A stretch of 48,744 bases of DNA from Peptococcaceae bacterium (lineage in GTDB: Bacteria; Bacillota; Desulfitobacteriia; Desulfitobacteriales; Syntrophobotulaceae), in assembly GCA_012517475.1 (NCBI GenBank), contig JAAYUV010000013.1, forward strand, positions 1 to 48,744, given 5' to 3'. The notes below the pieces were generated by a model that saw only the letters and a program-made list of their open reading frames with translations, searched no databases and was not told where the DNA came from. The position numbers and the translations under genes were made by a program. Each line of letters begins with the position of its first letter. Position 1 is the stretch's first letter. Of this stretch, positions 15,637 through 47,517 are shown piece by piece.

Positions 15637-15683
15637 CTTTAATGGCTGTTCTTTGTATGACTTAATAAACCGGATCAGGGCAG

Positions 15684-15914
15684 GGCTACGTAATGTATAG
15701 ACGCTTTCGGCAGCGTAAAGGCCTGCCAGGCCTTTACGGCCATCCTTGGCCGCTGCTCCATGTCATCCTGACATCGCAGCACTAGGCCATCCTTGGCCTT
15801 CGAAACAGCCGCGCTCCGCAGTCGATTGCTTTGTCATCCATGACGCATTCGACACTAGGCACTTCCTGTGCCGTCGTCCGTGCTCCGCTTGCGCTGTCTA
15901 TACATTACGTAGCC
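15684..15914. repeat. Structured repeat, copy 1
   Basis: A 231-bp element closed by a perfect 19-bp inverted repeat, GGCTACGTAATGTATAGAC at 15684-15702 with its complement at 15896-15914. Inside is a row of separate hairpins: a 10-bp stem at 15715-15737, then stems at 15738-15751, 15760-15774, 15784-15799, 15833-15844 and 15858-15872. Five of the six loops read TCC on this strand (TCCT, TCC, TCCT, TCCA, TTCCT), hence GGA on the other strand; the first, GCC, does not. Sequences just outside are also shared with the other copies (AGGGCAGG on the left, CTAGT then TCTGG on the right). No protein is encoded. Copies 2 (inverted) and 3 are at 20700 and 47339. Confidence 0.85.
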
Positions 15915-15939
15915 TAGTCTCTGGATTTAGGAGAAGGCC

Positions 15940-16206
15940 GGATGGTTAGGCGAGAACTACTAACCCCAAGGGCTTGTTCGCCTCCAAATAGTCATTTAGC
16001 AGCATAACTTGACATCCTACAGAAGAGATAAGACTGTTCTTTTTTTAGAAGAACTGCCTTTGGAACAATCCTAAACAAAGAAAACACTAACAAATCCTGA
16101 TTTTCGGGAAAGGAAATTCATTTTTGGGCTAGAAAAAAGACTGATAACTCGTATTCAATTGGGGAAATTAGTTCTTTGAATCCCCATAGTGCCGTTTGGC
16201 GGCTTC
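15940..16206. other. Non-coding stretch left of the attC array
   Basis: No supported gene. There is a small hairpin near 15957-16003 (AGGCGA with CGCCT) and a GGGGA/TCCCC hairpin at 16161-16185. In the cassette orientation proposed here this would be the start of a further cassette whose gene is lost or was never present. Confidence 0.4.
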
Positions 16207-16302
16207 GTTCAACACTATTGTATCTGAAATTGAGTAATGAATTTCGGAGGTATAATTGTAGGAAGCCCGCTCAAATTCAGATACAATACTATGACGTTAT
16301 GC
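16207..16302 (-). other. attC: attC-like recombination site 1
   Basis: Two core-like boxes, GTTCAAC (16207-16213) and GTTATGC (16296-16302), bracket a long imperfect palindrome. A perfect 13-bp stem, TATTGTATCTGAA (16216-16228) with TTCAGATACAATA (16276-16288), extends inward through ATTGAG/CTCAAAT with a bulge. This is the architecture of integron attC sites (R box, L box, variable centre, L' box, R' box). In the orientation of the cassette genes (minus) it is the attC at the 3' end of the hicA-hicB-secB-like cassette. No integrase gene is in the window. Confidence 0.65.
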
Positions 16303-16314
16303 GAAATTGCCGAA

Positions 16315-16339
16315 GAAAAAAACTCCCTTTTCAGGGAGC
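16315..16339 (-). terminator. Terminator of the TAC cassette (minus strand)
   Basis: On the minus strand AGCTCCCT and AGGGAGT flank a GAAA loop and are followed by seven T. The stop codon of the SecB-like gene lies inside the hairpin, so the gene, terminator and attC are packed together. Confidence 0.75.
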
Positions 16340-16777
16340 TTCATTAACATCTTCTTGGGATTTATTTGGAAACATTATTATTGGTAATGTAACAAACCTT
16401 TCAGTAACAAAAGCAATTACTAATGATGCATATGAATATAGTGGAGTAGCGAGTTCGTCAAGCTCATTTTCTATATCAGATTCTGATAGTTTCCCTTTAA
16501 ATCTGTAAGTTCCCAAAATTTCTATATCAAGTCTAAAAGGTCCTCCTGGAGTAAAGAATAGATGTTCTGAGAGTTTAATTTTAATATCTTTGTCGTTAAT
16601 TTCTAATAGAGTGACATTATTTTGACGAGTAAATTTCACTGGATCCACAGGAGGTTCAGTCGTTAATAATTGGCCATTTATACTTAACAGTTGAACATTA
16701 ATTAAAGTCAGTTTATTTTCTATTTTTGATACACTCTTTTTCTTATTACTTTTTGGTGTTTCATTTTTTGTTACCAT
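16331..16777 (-). CDS. SecB-like chaperone of a toxin-antitoxin-chaperone module
   Basis: A 148-residue protein with a lysine-rich N-terminal tail and then alternating beta strands and a C-terminal helix. It resembles the SecB fold: FTRQNNVTLLEINDKDIKIKL strands, then ELATPLYSYASLVIAFVTERFVTLPIIMFPN, which matches the SecB pattern of a long helix ending near a conserved Pro. In known TAC systems a SecB-like chaperone folds and protects the antitoxin. Its ATG overlaps the hicB stop by 7 bases, and it is the third gene after hicA and hicB. The assignment is by pattern and context; the fold should be confirmed by profile search. Confidence 0.6.
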   Translation of the reverse strand: MVTKNETPKSNKKKSVSKIENKLTLINVQLLSINGQLLTTEPPVDPVKFTRQNNVTLLEINDKDIKIKLSEHLFFTPGGPFRLDIEILGTYRFKGKLSESDIENELDELATPLYSYASLVIAFVTERFVTLPIIMFPNKSQEDVNEAP

Positions 16778-17310
16778 CTTTTAATACCACCTGCCTGTTG
16801 AGAAGTATTTGAAGGCCATGTCTGCTCGATATTTTGTAAAAACGGATTGTAATTCTTTTTAATATCTAATTCAGATTTACTATAAATGAAGACATTCAAA
16901 TTATTGCTTTCTTTGATTTGGTTTTTCCCAATAACCTTGCCAAAATTTAAAGAGATTAAAGAAAGCAAATAGGAATTTAAACTCATATTATCCTTTTTTG
17001 CGGCTAAAGAAAGCTCCCTATGAAGAAAGCTGGGTAAACGTAATGTGAATTTTCCACTATACTCTTCATCTTCTTGACTACTAGGCAATGGAATTATTTG
17101 ATTTCTCTTAATAGCTGTTTTGATCCAAGCTACTTTTGCATCTTTAAGGTTATTTAAAGCTTCTTGTTGATTTTCGCCGTCCGACATACAACCCTTTAAT
17201 TCGGGAATAGTAGCTAACCACCCACCTCCATCTTCTTCACTAAGCGGAGTCAACACTACTTGATATGGTAAATCAAGGTAGTATTGAATATCCTTGGTCA
17301 TTTTAGTCAT
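16771..17310 (-). CDS. hicB: HicB-family antitoxin with C-terminal extension
   Basis: A 179-residue antitoxin. Residues about 10-70 form the HicB partial RNase H-like domain (GGWLATIPELKGCMSDGENQ, EALNNLKDAKVAWI). Residues about 86-118 look like a ribbon-helix-helix DNA-binding domain (GKFTLRLPSFLHRELSLAA, then SLNSYLLSLIS). The last 45 residues or so are an extra tail with aromatic and hydrophobic positions (NVFIYSKSEL, NPFLQNIEQTW). In TAC antitoxins such a tail is the chaperone-addiction segment, which may explain the SecB-like partner. It overlaps hicA by 8 bases. Confidence 0.85.
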   Translation of the reverse strand: MTKMTKDIQYYLDLPYQVVLTPLSEEDGGGWLATIPELKGCMSDGENQQEALNNLKDAKVAWIKTAIKRNQIIPLPSSQEDEEYSGKFTLRLPSFLHRELSLAAKKDNMSLNSYLLSLISLNFGKVIGKNQIKESNNLNVFIYSKSELDIKKNYNPFLQNIEQTWPSNTSQQAGGIKRW

Positions 17311-17551
17311 CCTCCTTAATTTCCTCTATCATCGCAATTAATTTTTTAATATAAATTGGTTTTACTCTGTTATTGTGAACAGGAATGCTCAGATTAACAT
17401 CTGAATCATCGTGATATACCACCCAGTGACTGCTTCCATCAGGTTCCTCATACTTTATATCAAAGAATCTCAAAATAGGAAGTAGTTCATCCCATTTTAT
17501 ATCCTTGGGGTTCTGGAGTAGCCTTTCAAACCTTTTTCGGATTTTTGACAC
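17303..17551 (-). CDS. hicA: HicA-family mRNA-interferase toxin
   Basis: An 82-residue toxin with the double-stranded-RNA-binding-like HicA fold. The start SKIRKRFERLLQNPKDIKWDEL is typical of longer HicA proteins. The catalytic histidine is His42 in DGSSHWVVYH, followed by the strand and VKPIYIKKLIAMIEE helix of the family. HicA toxins cleave mRNA and tmRNA without ribosomes. It is the first gene of the three-gene unit, behind its own promoter at 17628-17656. Confidence 0.85.
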   Translation of the reverse strand: MSKIRKRFERLLQNPKDIKWDELLPILRFFDIKYEEPDGSSHWVVYHDDSDVNLSIPVHNNRVKPIYIKKLIAMIEEIKEDD

Positions 17552-17627
17552 TCTTTATCTCTCCTATATTATATACATTGATATTATATCTGATACCAAA
17601 AGTGTAAAATAATATTTGGTATTACAT

Positions 17628-17656
17628 ATGATACTATTTTCTGATAAGTATGTCAA
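17628..17656 (-). promoter_or_regulatory. Cassette promoter and operator of the hicA-hicB-secB-like unit
   Basis: On the minus strand TTGACA (complement of 17651-17656) and TATCAT (complement of 17628-17633) are exactly 17 bases apart. Between this and hicA lie two operator-like palindromic stretches (around 17618-17633 and 17579-17595, both with GATA/TATC half-sites), as expected for HicB autoregulation. The promoter lies inside the cassette, so expression would not need an integron Pc promoter. Confidence 0.6.
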
Positions 17657-17657
17657 T

Positions 17658-17737
17658 GGCAATTTCGCATAACAAGGTGTTACCGTAACTTAGCGAAGAT
17701 GAAAGTAGTATGACGCTACGGTAACACCCAGACGTTA
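17658..17737 (-). other. attC: attC-like recombination site 2, split by a group II intron
   Basis: GCATAAC (17667-17673) and the remnant GTTA (17734-17737) bracket a perfect 12-bp stem, GGTGTTACCGTA (17676-17687) with TACGGTAACACC (17717-17728). The outer 16 bases 17658-17673 are the exact inverted copy of GTTATGCGAAATTGCC at 16296-16311, as expected when the ends of one circular cassette rebuild a single attC. The right-hand core is interrupted after GTTA, where a group II intron starts with GTGCG. Confidence 0.65.
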
Positions 17738-18987
17738 GTGCGCCAAGCAAAGCTTGGTACTTCTTGCAAGGTGAGAGTCCTTGCTGGGTAAGGTTTAGCC
17801 AACCACCCATATCGAGTGTTGCACTGAAACTGGAAACAGTAAGGTGAAGCGTACACAGAGAACCATATAGGCCATAGGGAGAACCGTAGCTCCTGAAGCA
17901 TATTCAGCCTCGTTAGCGAGAAGAGAGCAGATGGCGACGTGTTTAACGTCACGGAAGCTAACACAGAGGAATCGCCTTGGCGAGATTTCCGAGGATCTGC
18001 CGGGGTCAGAGAACGTGCCATGTATGGAGAGAAGTAGCAGGAACTTGGGAGACCCTGTCGGTTCCGGCACTGCCGGTAGGACTTACCAATCGAAAAAGAG
18101 GAAGGCTGATGACTGACAGGGAGTCGGATTAACCCATAATACTCTGAGGTCGGGAAAGCCGATTACAAGGGGAAGGGGTTAACAGGAGTATGCAGCCTGC
18201 AAAGGAAACATCAACCGGACATGCAGGATCGGAACAATTGATGCGAACCTCCCTGCAGGGAATAGCAAAAAAAGCGAAAAGACTCAAAAGCTACCGATTT
18301 CGGAACCTATACCAGTTGCTAAACTACAATTCACTTGCAGAAGCGTGAAAAAGAAATAACAAGAAGGCATCTGCAGGGGTTGATAGAATAACAACCAAAG
18401 AATTTGCTAAAGAGCTTAAACAAAACCTGACAAACTTGGCGGGTCAACTGGAAAGGAAAAGATATCGGGCAAAACTGGTTCGAAGAAGTGGACATACCCA
18501 AAGGAGAAGGAAAAACCAGACCACTCGGAATACCTGTAATATCGGACAAACTCGTTCAGGGCGCTGCTGCAAAGGTACTGGAAGCCATATACGAACAGGA
18601 CTTCTGCTCAAGTAGCTATGGCTACCGACCAAATATCAGTGCTCATGCAGCAATCAAAGACTTAAGCAAAGAATTAAACTTTGGTGACTACAGCTACATA
18701 GTAGAAGCAGACATCAAAGGATTTTTCCAAAACATCAATCACACCTGGCTTATAAGAATGCTGGAACAACGAATAGAGGACAGGGCGTTCCTGGGACTCA
18801 TCAAAAAGTGGCTCAGAGCAGGAATCTTAAAGCAGGATGGAGAGGTGGAACATCCGGTAACAGGAAGTCCGCAGGGCGGATCATCAGCCCAATATTAGCT
18901 AATATCTATCTGCACTATGTTCTGGATCTATGGTTTGAAAAACTAGTTAAACTACACTGCGAAGGAGAAGCTTATTTGTGTAGGTAA
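17738..18987 (+). mobile_element. Truncated group II intron, attC-targeting class C type
   Basis: The 5' end GTGCG at 17738 matches the group II consensus, and the next 450 bases carry group II ribozyme-like sequence (for example GGTGAGAGTCC at 17770-17780 and AACTGGAAACAGTAAGGTGA near 17829-17848). A maturase/reverse transcriptase frame follows. The intron sits inside an attC core and runs opposite to the cassette genes, as described for group IIC-attC introns. Domains V and VI and the 3' splice site are missing; the intron ends next to the hicB stop at 18992, so splicing and mobility are lost. Confidence 0.8.
18190..18987 (+). pseudogene. Broken group II intron reverse transcriptase/maturase
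   Basis: The reading frame starts at ATG 18190 (MQPAKETS, then SLQGIAKKAKR, YRFRNLYQLL). It meets an in-frame TGA at 18346 where relatives usually have Trp, continues through SAGVDRITTKEFAKELKQNL and KRYRAKLVRR, and shifts to the +1 frame near 18485. It then reads VDIPKGEGKTRPLGIPV, SSYGYRPN, VEADIKGFFQNI and GSPQGG. A second shift near 18880 returns ISPILANIYLHYVLDLWFE. It ends at TAA 18985, directly before the place where the catalytic YADD should follow. The sequence style is that of IEPs from attC-inserted class C introns. Confidence 0.88.
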
Positions 18988-18991
18988 GGAA

Positions 18992-19420
18992 TTAAAGAGT
19001 GCTTTTACCTTTTTTAGGTGGATAGTCATGGACACCAAGATTTTCTTTAAGAGCATTCTGTAAGAGCTGAGAGAAGTTCACTTTTCTTTCTTCACCTAAA
19101 TCGTTTAGCCACTTTGGAATAGTCAATGTTTTTTTGACAGCTTTATTTGCCATTTCATCTCTGATCAGAGGCATATAAGCTTCTACTAGTGTTACAAATG
19201 AATCTTGTTCAACTTTTATAGTTTCAGGTAATGAGGGTTTAGGGATTTCGTCATTATCTTGTTCCATTCCATATAAATGTAATTCAATTGCATCCTTGGC
19301 CATTAGATATGCTTCCTCTAGAGTTTCACCACAAGTGATGCATCCAGGTAAATCGGGAAAAGTAATTGTGTAACCATCCTTGTCGTGTTCAAATATAGCA
19401 GGATAAATATATCTATCCAT
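18992..19420 (-). CDS. hicB: HicB-family antitoxin (second pair)
   Basis: A 142-residue antitoxin. The N-terminal HicB domain (YIYPAIFEHDKDGYTITFPDLPGCITCGETLEEA) is followed by a linker and a C-terminal ribbon-helix-helix type region (KKTLTIPKWLNDLGEERKVNFSQLLQNAL). It follows its toxin gene by 20 bases. Unlike the first HicB it has no long tail, and no chaperone gene follows. Its stop codon lies 5 bases from the truncated intron end, so the original 3' flank is lost, but the gene itself appears complete. Confidence 0.9.
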   Translation of the reverse strand: MDRYIYPAIFEHDKDGYTITFPDLPGCITCGETLEEAYLMAKDAIELHLYGMEQDNDEIPKPSLPETIKVEQDSFVTLVEAYMPLIRDEMANKAVKKTLTIPKWLNDLGEERKVNFSQLLQNALKENLGVHDYPPKKGKSTL

Positions 19421-19440
19421 TGAAATACCTCCTTTGTTAT

Positions 19441-19641
19441 TTACTTTATGTTATCAAGGTTAGCTTGTTTCATTATTGCTTGGACAGTTTTTTGAGGGAG
19501 ATCCTTATTCGGATGCGGTACTGTAACTTTGCCTTTTTTTGTTGGATGCTCAAGTTGTACATGAGAACCGCGTTGTCTTTTTACTGTCCAACCATCTTTA
19601 AGTAATATTTGGATTACATCTTTTGAAGAGGATGATGTCAT
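19441..19641 (-). CDS. hicA: HicA-family mRNA-interferase toxin (second pair)
   Basis: A compact 66-residue HicA toxin: VIQILLKDGWTVKRQRGSHVQLEHPTKKGKVTVPHPNKDLPQKTVQAIMKQANL covers the whole fold, with catalytic His27 in the RGSH motif and the family-typical HP-x-K-DLP turn. It is transcribed from a strong promoter whose -10 overlaps an inverted repeat (next entry). It forms a plain two-gene module with the HicB downstream. Confidence 0.92.
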   Translation of the reverse strand: MTSSSSKDVIQILLKDGWTVKRQRGSHVQLEHPTKKGKVTVPHPNKDLPQKTVQAIMKQANLDNIK

Positions 19642-19663
19642 TTAGTAAATACACATCCTTACT

Positions 19664-19708
19664 CTATAATATACAACTAATTATAGCACGTGTGAATATA
19701 CGTGTAAA
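19664..19708 (-). promoter_or_regulatory. Promoter and operator of the second hicAB pair
   Basis: On the minus strand TTTACA (complement of 19703-19708) and TATAAT (complement of 19680-19685) are 17 bases apart. CTATAAT at 19664-19670 and ATTATAG at 19680-19686 form a 7-bp inverted repeat over the -10, a likely HicB operator. Confidence 0.65.
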
Positions 19709-19719
19709 GAAGTGACGTC

Positions 19720-19791
19720 AGATAACGAGAATTGCCGAAACTTTGCAAAGGGGAAGGTACTTGTGATGCTTCGGCAATTCTCAAGATTATA
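19720..19791 (-). other. attC: attC-like recombination site 3 (degenerate)
   Basis: A perfect 13-bp stem, GAGAATTGCCGAA (19727-19739) with TTCGGCAATTCTC (19770-19782), is bracketed by AGATAAC (19720-19726) and GATTATA (19785-19791). In the cassette orientation the R' box reads GTTATCT. The outer box on the right is poor. Position upstream of hicAB promoter and spacing fit an attC at the border of the second cassette, but the evidence is weaker than for sites 1 and 2. Confidence 0.42.
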
Positions 19792-19919
19792 AAATCGCGC
19801 ACAGGAACGCGGCCACATCGTGTGGCGGATTTAGATAGGGAAAGAATTTGTGGTCAATAGAATGAATTTCAGATAAGACCGTCGATAAAGTCATCTTCAT
19901 CGACGGTCGATTACTCACA

Positions 19920-20264
19920 TCACAGCCTCTGCGCTATCTTCCCAAGTAACTGGCTTACCTCACTTTTATACTTTTCATGCGTTTCCGGATCCGCTGGGGC
20001 TATCTCGGTGAGTTCCTTGAGCAGTTCATCGAATCCTTTAACCATGTTATCGAAGTGAACGGCGACTTTGTTGGCGGACACCTTGGTTTGCGCGGCTTTG
20101 AGGTCTTTTTCCAGCGCGGCGATTCTCTCGGCGGATATGCCGTCTTTTTTGGCCGCGGCCAGCTCCTGCCGCAGTGTCCTGCTGTCGAAGGAGTCGAGCT
20201 GGTTGGACCTATTCAAAGCATAAAATTGCCGGCAAAGATGACTTTGTCGGCAGTATGGAATCAA
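19920..20264 (-). pseudogene. Gene fragment, coiled-coil C-terminus of unknown protein
   Basis: About 80 residues on the minus strand form a credible protein end: LRQELAAAKKDGISAERIAALE, then FDNMVKGFDELLKELTEI and a C-terminal helix, mostly helical and charged. The composition is more GC-rich than the surroundings, suggesting transfer. The apparent N-terminus runs into a hairpin at about 20229-20253 and has no ribosome binding site, so it looks like the remnant of a larger gene. I do not recognise the family. Confidence 0.4.
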
Positions 20265-20699
20265 GTTATGTTGCTTGAAAACGGTTTTGTCTTCAGTCTG
20301 GGAGGAGCAAATTTGCTCCTCTTATTTGATTATTTTTGTCCAAAAGAATTCTGTTTTGGTCTAATTATAGGGGCCGACCTCCTGTCGGCCTCTGTATTTG
20401 AGGGCGCGCGACTTTACATAACAGAATGTTTCCAAAATATGGTATAATATAAATGTGCTCTAACCAGACTTCGGGAGTTCACGGGACGTTAACTGACATG
20501 CTAAGCCTTGAATGGAAATAGAAGATGTGGGAAAAGGACAGTGGAGCGGAAGGAAAGATGAGGCCTTTATAGAGCCTTTTAAACATCCTAAAAACCGTAT
20601 TTTTCGGGAGAAAGTTGTAGAATAGGGATTTTCTGAAGGTATTGACTTGTAAGTTTGCAGGCATTTAAGACCACAAACTAATCTCTGACCACAAACTAG
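20265..20699. other. Non-coding stretch with hairpins and a tandem repeat
   Basis: A perfect 20-bp palindrome lies at 20302-20321 followed by TTATTTGATT, and a GGCCGAC/GTCGGCC hairpin lies at about 20371-20389; both could act as terminators. A TATAAT hexamer occurs near 20443 without a good -35. An 18-bp direct repeat beginning GACCACAAACTA occurs at 20669-20686 and 20687-20704, the second running into structured repeat copy 2. No gene is supported. Confidence 0.5.
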
Positions 20700-20909
20700 T
20701 CTCCGCAATGTATAGACAGCGTAAGCGGAGCACGGACGACGGCACAGGAAGTGCCTAGTGTCGAATGCGTCATGGATGACAAAGCAATCGACTGCGGAGA
20801 GCGGCTGTTTCGAAGCTCAGGAAGAGCTAGTGCCGCGGTGCCATGGATGGCAATGAGCGGCTCGCCATGGATGGCGCAATTTGCCGAAAGCGGCTATACA
20901 TTGCGGAGA
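20700..20909. repeat. Structured repeat, copy 2 (inverted relative to copy 1)
   Basis: A 210-bp element closed by a perfect 16-bp inverted repeat, TCTCCGCAATGTATAG at 20700-20715 with its complement at 20894-20909. Its first 100 bases are almost identical to the reverse complement of the right half of copy 1. On the plus strand five hairpins display GGA in the loop: 20741-20755 (AGGAA), 20769-20780 (TGGA), 20814-20828 (AGGAA), 20839-20852 (TGGA) and 20863-20876 (TGGA). The closing arms differ from copy 1 but still match each other. Confidence 0.85.
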
Positions 20910-20979
20910 CCTGCCCTGATAAAAGGAACTATGGCAATAACCCATTTCAAAAAGAGTCTTTTTATAAGATAAACCGAGT

Positions 20980-47241: not shown

Positions 47242-47338
47242 CTAGAAATAAATATAAAACGACTTTAATCTTATTGATTTGAATTTGTTGTTTCTAAACG
47301 ACTGGTTTTTTGCATGCCTTAATAAGCCATCACAAGGT

Positions 47339-47517
47339 AGGGCTGCATAATGTATTGACGCTTTCGGCAGATCGTGAAGGCCACTAGCCTTCACGCCTCC
47401 ATGGCGAGCCGCTCAATGCCATCCATGGCATCGCGGCACTAGGCCATCCTTGGCCTTCGAAACAGCCGCACTCCGCATCCTTGCTCCGTTGACGCTGTCA
47501 ATACATTACGCAGCCCT
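47339..47517. repeat. Structured repeat, copy 3
   Basis: A 179-bp element in the same orientation as copy 1. It is closed by a 21-bp inverted repeat (47339-47359 with 47497-47517, one mismatch). Both arms read GTATTGAC/GTCAATAC where copy 1 has GTATAGAC/GTCTATAC, so both sides changed together. Internal hairpins include a long stem GTGAAGGC/GCCTTCAC, where copy 1 has GTAAAGGC/GCCTTTAC, and ATGCCA-TCCA-TGGCAT, where copy 1 has ATGTCA-TCC-TGACAT. The segment from the last hairpins to the right arm is shorter than in copy 1. Confidence 0.85.

Follow-up and report, generated by a model that had tools for sequence, protein, structure and literature searches.

Among described systems, the Vibrio superintegron with its canonical integrase IntI consists of short gene cassettes in tandem, some of them with toxin-antitoxin pairs; its attC sites have AAC/GTT core boxes, unpaired bases in the 5′ arm of the top strand and a crossover at G|TT, and its attI site adjoins the integrase gene. 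The I2 helix, found only in IntI and missing from other proteins, is described as needed for cassette capture (PMC7790495). In Firmicutes integrons are described as extremely rare, with one complete integron (Limnochorda pilosa) and a few clusters of attC sites lacking integron-integrases (CALINs) on record (PMC9024848). Here we analyse a cassette cluster at 16.2-20.5 kb of a window, that is, the whole stretch of 48,744 nucleotides studied, which is contig C50 of the Peptococcaceae genome G000 (a 3.68-Mb draft in 115 contigs). The host is a member of the Bacillota, as a preliminary description of this DNA had supposed, and belongs to the order that includes Desulfosporosinus. The system found here has the cassette, attC and attI traits listed for the Vibrio superintegron. 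The comparisons below show that its hairpins are real attC sites and suggest that cassettes standing behind a recombinase without the I2 helix make up an undescribed integron variety.

Hairpins of the attC type in the window and its relatives

The window holds four hairpins of the attC type, all in plus sense (16207-16302, 17667-17740, 19720-19792 and 20416-20494). Site 1, of a long-loop type, has the arms TATTGTATCTGAAatTGAG / CTCAaATTCAGATACAATA, an R″ box ending in TTCAAC and the R′ box GTTATGC, with homologues in relatives. Site 2 reads AAC-AA-GGTGTTACCGTA .. TACGGTAACACC-CAGAC-G|TTA, site 3 combines a 13-bp stem (GAGAATTGCCGAA) with a degenerate R′ box (GATTATA), and in site 4 one arm is degraded. 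When sites 1-3 were folded as single-stranded DNA, the z scores were −3.3 to −4.2 and 0-1 of 200 shuffles folded equally well. The preliminary description had recognized these three hairpins, the third as a poorer site, as well as inverted copies of a 16-mer at 16296-16311 and 17658-17673, which it read as the complementary ends of one cassette. The copies are indeed exact (100%), and this cassette logic proved right: cassette ends match their own partner at 7.16 of 9 nt, against 4.53 (sd 0.11) for shuffled partners.

To avoid circularity, the covariance model R2 was trained with all sites of the window's own genome excluded. It scored site 2 at 79.3 bits (E 2e-19), site 3 at 54.1 bits (E 3e-12) and site 4 at 31.4 bits (E 7e-6). 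R2 gave no match at site 1, because the loop of this site is about 20 nt longer; the arms have counterparts with 86-94% identity at the loci L090, L029, L104, L113 and L076, and a full-length alignment with the hairpin of one relative scored 159, shuffles reaching at most 84.5. In an alignment of 24 attC sites, 12 of the 13 stem pairs are retained in at least 23 sequences, and single positions show up to five pair types. By this comparison the attC sites are hairpins with AAC..GTT core boxes, covarying arms and a variable loop; they differ from those of the Vibrio superintegron in their single conserved type of 76 nt, whose spacers measure 1-2/5 nt and which has a block of unpaired bases.

Relatives of site 2 occur in its own genome on contigs C53 (88%) and C49 (83%), and a collection-wide pattern search with its stem retrieved Gracilibacter sp. 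BRH_c7a (three contigs) and Desulfosporosinus sp. Tol-M; one 5.9-kb BRH_c7a contig carries seven sites of this type in tandem. A search of the window's genome for other cassettes yielded 17-18 sites spread over several contigs (18 with the covariance model R1 at E up to 1). Across the order, 57 of 74 genomes, from 18 of 22 genera, had attC sites by R1 (up to 64 per genome); in a sample of the remaining phylum this model found them in only 12 of about 386 genomes. A covariance model built from the relatives gave no hits in the stretches around class 1 and class 2 integrase genes (L127/L128). We also observed on contig C49 an isolated cassette (L026 10253-11090) that contains AbrB/RelE-type toxin-antitoxin genes and has the matching ends GTTATCTGAAGGTCGGC / GCCGACTTTCAGATAAC.

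That these hairpins are ordinary dispersed repeats, such as terminators, repetitive extragenic palindromic (REP) elements or transposon ends, is barely credible to us. An IS91-like unit of relatives terminates in site 1, and a palindromic repeat of ~240 nt lies on the flanks of the cluster, as such an origin would have it; yet the boundaries are site-specific, each cassette has complementary ends of its own, different genes lie between the sites, and the hairpins keep a constant orientation and a spacing of ~0.8 kb, in up to 64 copies per genome that are largely in arrays. Moreover, the IS91-like unit itself sits as a cassette between attI and attC in genome G046.

An array-linked recombinase without the I2 segment

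A genome search for intI, which the preliminary description had proposed, did not bring up a canonical integrase: neither in the window's own genome nor in 60 relatives did anything score above the cut-off of TIGR02249, the model for these enzymes. What it pointed to is a non-canonical recombinase. In many genomes the best sub-threshold match belongs to one family of ~366 aa with attC-rich surroundings, whose member in the window's genome is encoded at C98:46489-47589. The genes ahead of it we take, by eye, to be of the nrdD/nrdG type; behind it follow at least 4 attC sites, reaching near the contig end.

The protein has the complete catalytic set R..K..HxxR..H..Y, with the RKHRHY residues invariant in the alignment, and matches PF00589 at 1e-41. 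TIGR02249 aligns with it in two pieces, both under the cut-off. The distance from KGxKDR to HxLRH is 59 residues in all array-linked copies measured (60 in one fragment) as opposed to 100 in IntI1 and IntI2, and an alignment to IntI4 (2A3V) breaks at the same spot, with 23 versus 65 residues. As read from these alignments, the recombinase is one without the 41-residue IntI segment that bears the I2 helix. This absence (59 versus 100 residues) and an extra N-terminal domain set it apart from the integrase of the Vibrio superintegron. Since the array-linked recombinase lacks the IntI-specific I2 domain by which the IntI type is recognized, we do not class the array system as a canonical integron.

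The closest NCBI family is NF040815 ('site-specific tyrosine recombinase/integron integrase'), at 215.6 bits, or 215-221 bits across two members (cut-off 220). The best family match of the recombinase lies with XerA/NF040815 and the 'integron-like' subgroup of tyrosine recombinases (PMC8138268), in which the IntI insertion is incompletely conserved (PMC8138268); attC arrays and a HARP-like domain, both seen here, were not found described for these proteins in the text searched. In a small tree the recombinase family forms one group (94/95), separate from IntI1/IntI2 and XerC/D and nearest to the recombinases of IS91-like units, with weak deep branches. Two Trp are invariant in the N-terminal ~75 residues. 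Six of 11 such N-terminal domains matched HARP (PF07443) at E<=1, the best at 1.5e-4; the protein of the window's own genome did not. Binding to branched DNA is a property of HARP domains. When a profile of the N-terminal domain was searched against solved structures, no credible match emerged.

Two other candidates for the array integrase were rejected. One is a TIGR02249 match on C53, which adjoins an IS91-type transposase. The other is a 279-aa recombinase beside arrays (L076, L104, L090), set aside because it belongs to the IS91-like unit and to another clade.

attC arrays follow the recombinase gene

Arrays of attC sites stand directly 3′ of the recombinase and in the same direction also in G008, G009, G017, G021, G032, G042, G046 and G054; G021 has 13 attC in 10 kb behind the gene, and in G032 the gene is broken. 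An array is present behind the gene wherever the contig continues far enough, and the six loci without one (L074, L075, L078, L081, L082 and L083) all stop at a contig edge. Genomes with the recombinase have a median of 13 attC sites, compared with 3 in those without it (p=2.6e-4). Close homologues were found in 23 of 398 sampled genomes of the phylum, 18 of them outside the order. There, 8 of the 14 loci with enough 3′ sequence gave attC hits, all 20 of them in the recombinase sense, and some of these sites are longer (100-155 nt). On a Chryseobacterium plasmid, the gene for a protein with 42% identity, N-terminal domain included, is followed by same-sense cassette-like units with matching ends. 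A control locus with IntI1 displayed the classical layout, with the cassette 5′ of the gene on the opposite strand. No copy of the recombinase was found in the viral contigs searched.

The arrangement seen by this comparison differs from the Vibrio superintegron, in which attI and the array lie on the 5′ side of a divergent integrase gene; here they lie 3′ of the gene and run in its direction. In archaeal integrons, too, attI directly follows the integrase gene, but archaeal IntI contains the IntI-specific domain that is absent here (PMC9668308). As a separate observation, two opposed arrays with identical cassettes in common form an inverted duplication adjoining the recombinase in G042 (L072 12000-18500).

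A canonical IntI, working in other bacteria or since lost from the order, might have moved ordinary cassettes while the recombinase was a Xer-like bystander. Such an account would agree with the I2 helix being described as required for cassette capture (PMC7790495), with what is known of CALINs, which can form when cassettes insert off target or an integrase is lost (PMC8618304), and with the large arrays of G027 and G032, which have no intact recombinase. We consider it unlikely, since 61 genomes contain no IntI over the cut-off and yet attC sites are present in 57 of the 74 genomes of the order, since in many genomes the array starts, with differing cassettes, at a conserved site 74-128 nt past the recombinase stop codon, and since recombinase and array are also found together outside the order and in Bacteroidota.

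Cassette direction, crossover point and attI

Three cassettes duplicated within genomes keep the 3′ hairpin (in recombinase sense) exactly as far as G|TT, while their 5′ sides differ. In 100 inter-attC segments (median 792 nt), the longest open reading frame (ORF) runs in the recombinase sense in 89 and in the opposite sense in 8, so that 89 of the 97 cassettes whose main ORF is clear follow the recombinase. A stretch resembling attI lies within 74-128 nt of the recombinase stop in most genomes examined; it has two boxes of the CCGCAA..TGCGG type and ends in (R)GAC|GTT, the start of the first cassette. G012 and G023 share this stretch almost unchanged over 105 nt, and directly behind it they carry different cassettes. 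Judged by such comparisons, from which we also draw the cassette limits and the exchange of cassettes, the sequence beside the recombinase is an attI-like site that would take up cassettes. A search for a cassette promoter (Pc) gave 2 promoter-like sites, with 5.4 expected in shuffles.

Because the duplicated cassettes, the attI position and the ORF orientation agree, the cassette sense equals the recombinase sense, and in the window each hairpin would recombine at the G|TT of its 3′ side, read on the plus strand. The preliminary description had proposed the reverse, a stray CALIN of minus-strand cassettes with an attC behind each gene. The unambiguous array genes in the window do all lie on the minus strand. 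Canonical group IIC-attC introns, moreover, enter the bottom strand of attC and so oppose the cassettes (PMC7923331); by that rule, the intron insertion described below would agree with minus-sense cassettes. We nevertheless hold this version to be very improbable: the three duplicates, the attI position and the 89-to-8 ratio all point to plus, and in 8 of 8 distinct cases the hairpin has the intron junction GTTA|GTGCGCC on the same side. A minus sense derived from spacer lengths alone was overturned by the same duplicates, attI position and orientation of ORFs in cassette segments. With the attC sense on plus, the earlier statement that all cassette genes are oriented to have an attC behind them is wrong, and the HicA/HicB genes of the window run counter to the cassettes, as in the minority of segments.

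A proposed model of cassette movement

By all comparative signs, the array system works like an integron. In the model that we propose, two attC sites would fold as single strands, a state that we infer for the cell, and recombination between their G|TT points would release a cassette (TT..gene..AAC-hairpin-G) as a circle. The circle would then enter the G|TT of the attI-like site, 74-128 nt from the recombinase gene on its 3′ side, so that the array would extend on that side of the gene and share its direction. Recognition of the folded hairpin may fall to the HARP-like domain. The cluster in the window may stem from off-site insertion or from rearrangement of such an array, followed by the hit of a group II intron and by losses. 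The 16.2-20.5 kb region is thus probably a small decaying CALIN, with plus-sense cassettes of an integron-like system whose I2-less recombinase is encoded on C98. We also lean, with less confidence, towards a class of integrons that is widespread in Bacillota and Bacteroidota, whose integrase acts on folded attC hairpins with a HARP-like N-terminal domain instead of I2 and whose attI and array lie on the 3′ side of the gene. Such a class would reflect either a second origin of single-strand cassette recombination or a state near the IntI ancestor.

Several observations weigh against this interpretation. G027, which has no copy of the recombinase, and G032, in which it is broken, bear very many attC sites without an intact enzyme, and many other genomes have a few attC and no copy. 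Conversely, G001 and G005 have the gene and no attC, both contigs ending there. The HARP match is weak, catalysis by the ~366-aa recombinase we infer from comparison, and the HicA/HicB genes of the window lie on minus with the attC sense on plus. Finally, two cross-species cassette pairs are 93-97% identical and have different hairpins on both sides (L032 573-1241 (−) and L085 2491-3159 (−); L032 3733-4615 (−) and L079 11499-12380). They look as if gene and hairpin had been exchanged separately, which simple cassette transfer does not explain.

No integrase model matched contig C50, in keeping with the preliminary description, and since the window is without an integrase we call its cluster a CALIN: as in those defined with IntegronFinder (PMC9024848), several attC lie close together (at least two within 4 kb) with no adjoining integrase. 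The label suits the window but not the idea of an orphan stray, for the genome also has, on C98, an array adjoining its own recombinase, of a type that a search for the IntI domain would not accept. The earlier interpretation is partly supported: it named the right kind of element but gave the cassettes the wrong direction and took too narrow a view of the system.

Most genomes of one Bacillota order bear attC sites, many of them in arrays linked to an I2-less recombinase, and this indicates an uncatalogued pool of cassettes, toxin-antitoxin genes included. If the recombinase works as proposed, the rarity of integrons in Firmicutes would be partly a detection effect, because the tools look for IntI; the requirement for I2 would fall, and the origin of integrons could be tested by comparing two enzymes that act on hairpin sites. 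We found no description of arrays beside an I2-less integrase in the open-licence literature; subscription papers and preprints lay outside this search, so that priority is uncertain.

Features of the window cluster

The cluster looks decayed. Its left end is the remnant of an IS91-like unit (15934-16215, plus strand; 74% identity to L029 and L090 over 286 nt), which ends in site 1. In relatives this unit is intact, comprising a tyrosine recombinase and an IS91-type transposase. It is bounded like a gene cassette, with the start GTTGAAC and a site-1-type attC at its end (L076 10200-12642; L104 11665-14097; L090; window 15934-16302), and the intact copy of G046 lies between attI and such a site.

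Cassette B (16297-17734, plus) starts with TTATGCGAAATTGCC and ends in GGCAATTTCGCATAAC plus site 2 as far as G|TT. Its genes are all on the minus strand: a 148-aa protein without family match, opposite to the attC sense (16331-16777), a HicB-like antitoxin of 179 aa (16771-17310; PF05534 7e-11, PF15919 3e-8) and its 82-aa partner (17303-17551), HicA-like by position and by eye, with no match in Pfam. Cassette C contains a HicB-like antitoxin (18992-19420, minus; PF15919 1.4e-17) and a HicA toxin (19441-19641, minus; PF07927 3e-24), and site 3 closes it. Cassette D (19788-20488, plus), closed by the degraded site 4, has approximate boundaries, both ends being like cassette ends of relatives.

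Directly after the GTTA of site 2 lies a 3′-truncated group II intron with the start GTGCGCC (17738-18989, plus; RF02005 134 bits). Its reverse transcriptase is a pseudogene cut off ahead of YADD. In each of eight distinct cases, a member of one intron family sits on the cassette-sense strand behind the GTTA of R′, namely at window 17734, L027 6026, L101 10885, L102, L107, L115, L076 621 and L079 13312; the seven outside the window are on the genome's own contig C66 and in relatives. Group IIC-attC introns are likewise placed exactly at an attC core box (here GTTA|GTGCGCC), but the known ones enter the bottom strand at R″, whereas those found here enter the cassette-sense strand at R′.

The dispersed palindromic repeat of ~240 nt, with the ends CTACGTAATGTATAGAC / GTCTATACATTACGTAG, stands in inverted copies on both flanks of the cassette cluster. 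Copies lie at 15674-15925, 20689-20920 and 47333-47477 of the window and at L027 4689-4909, and more occur elsewhere in the genome.

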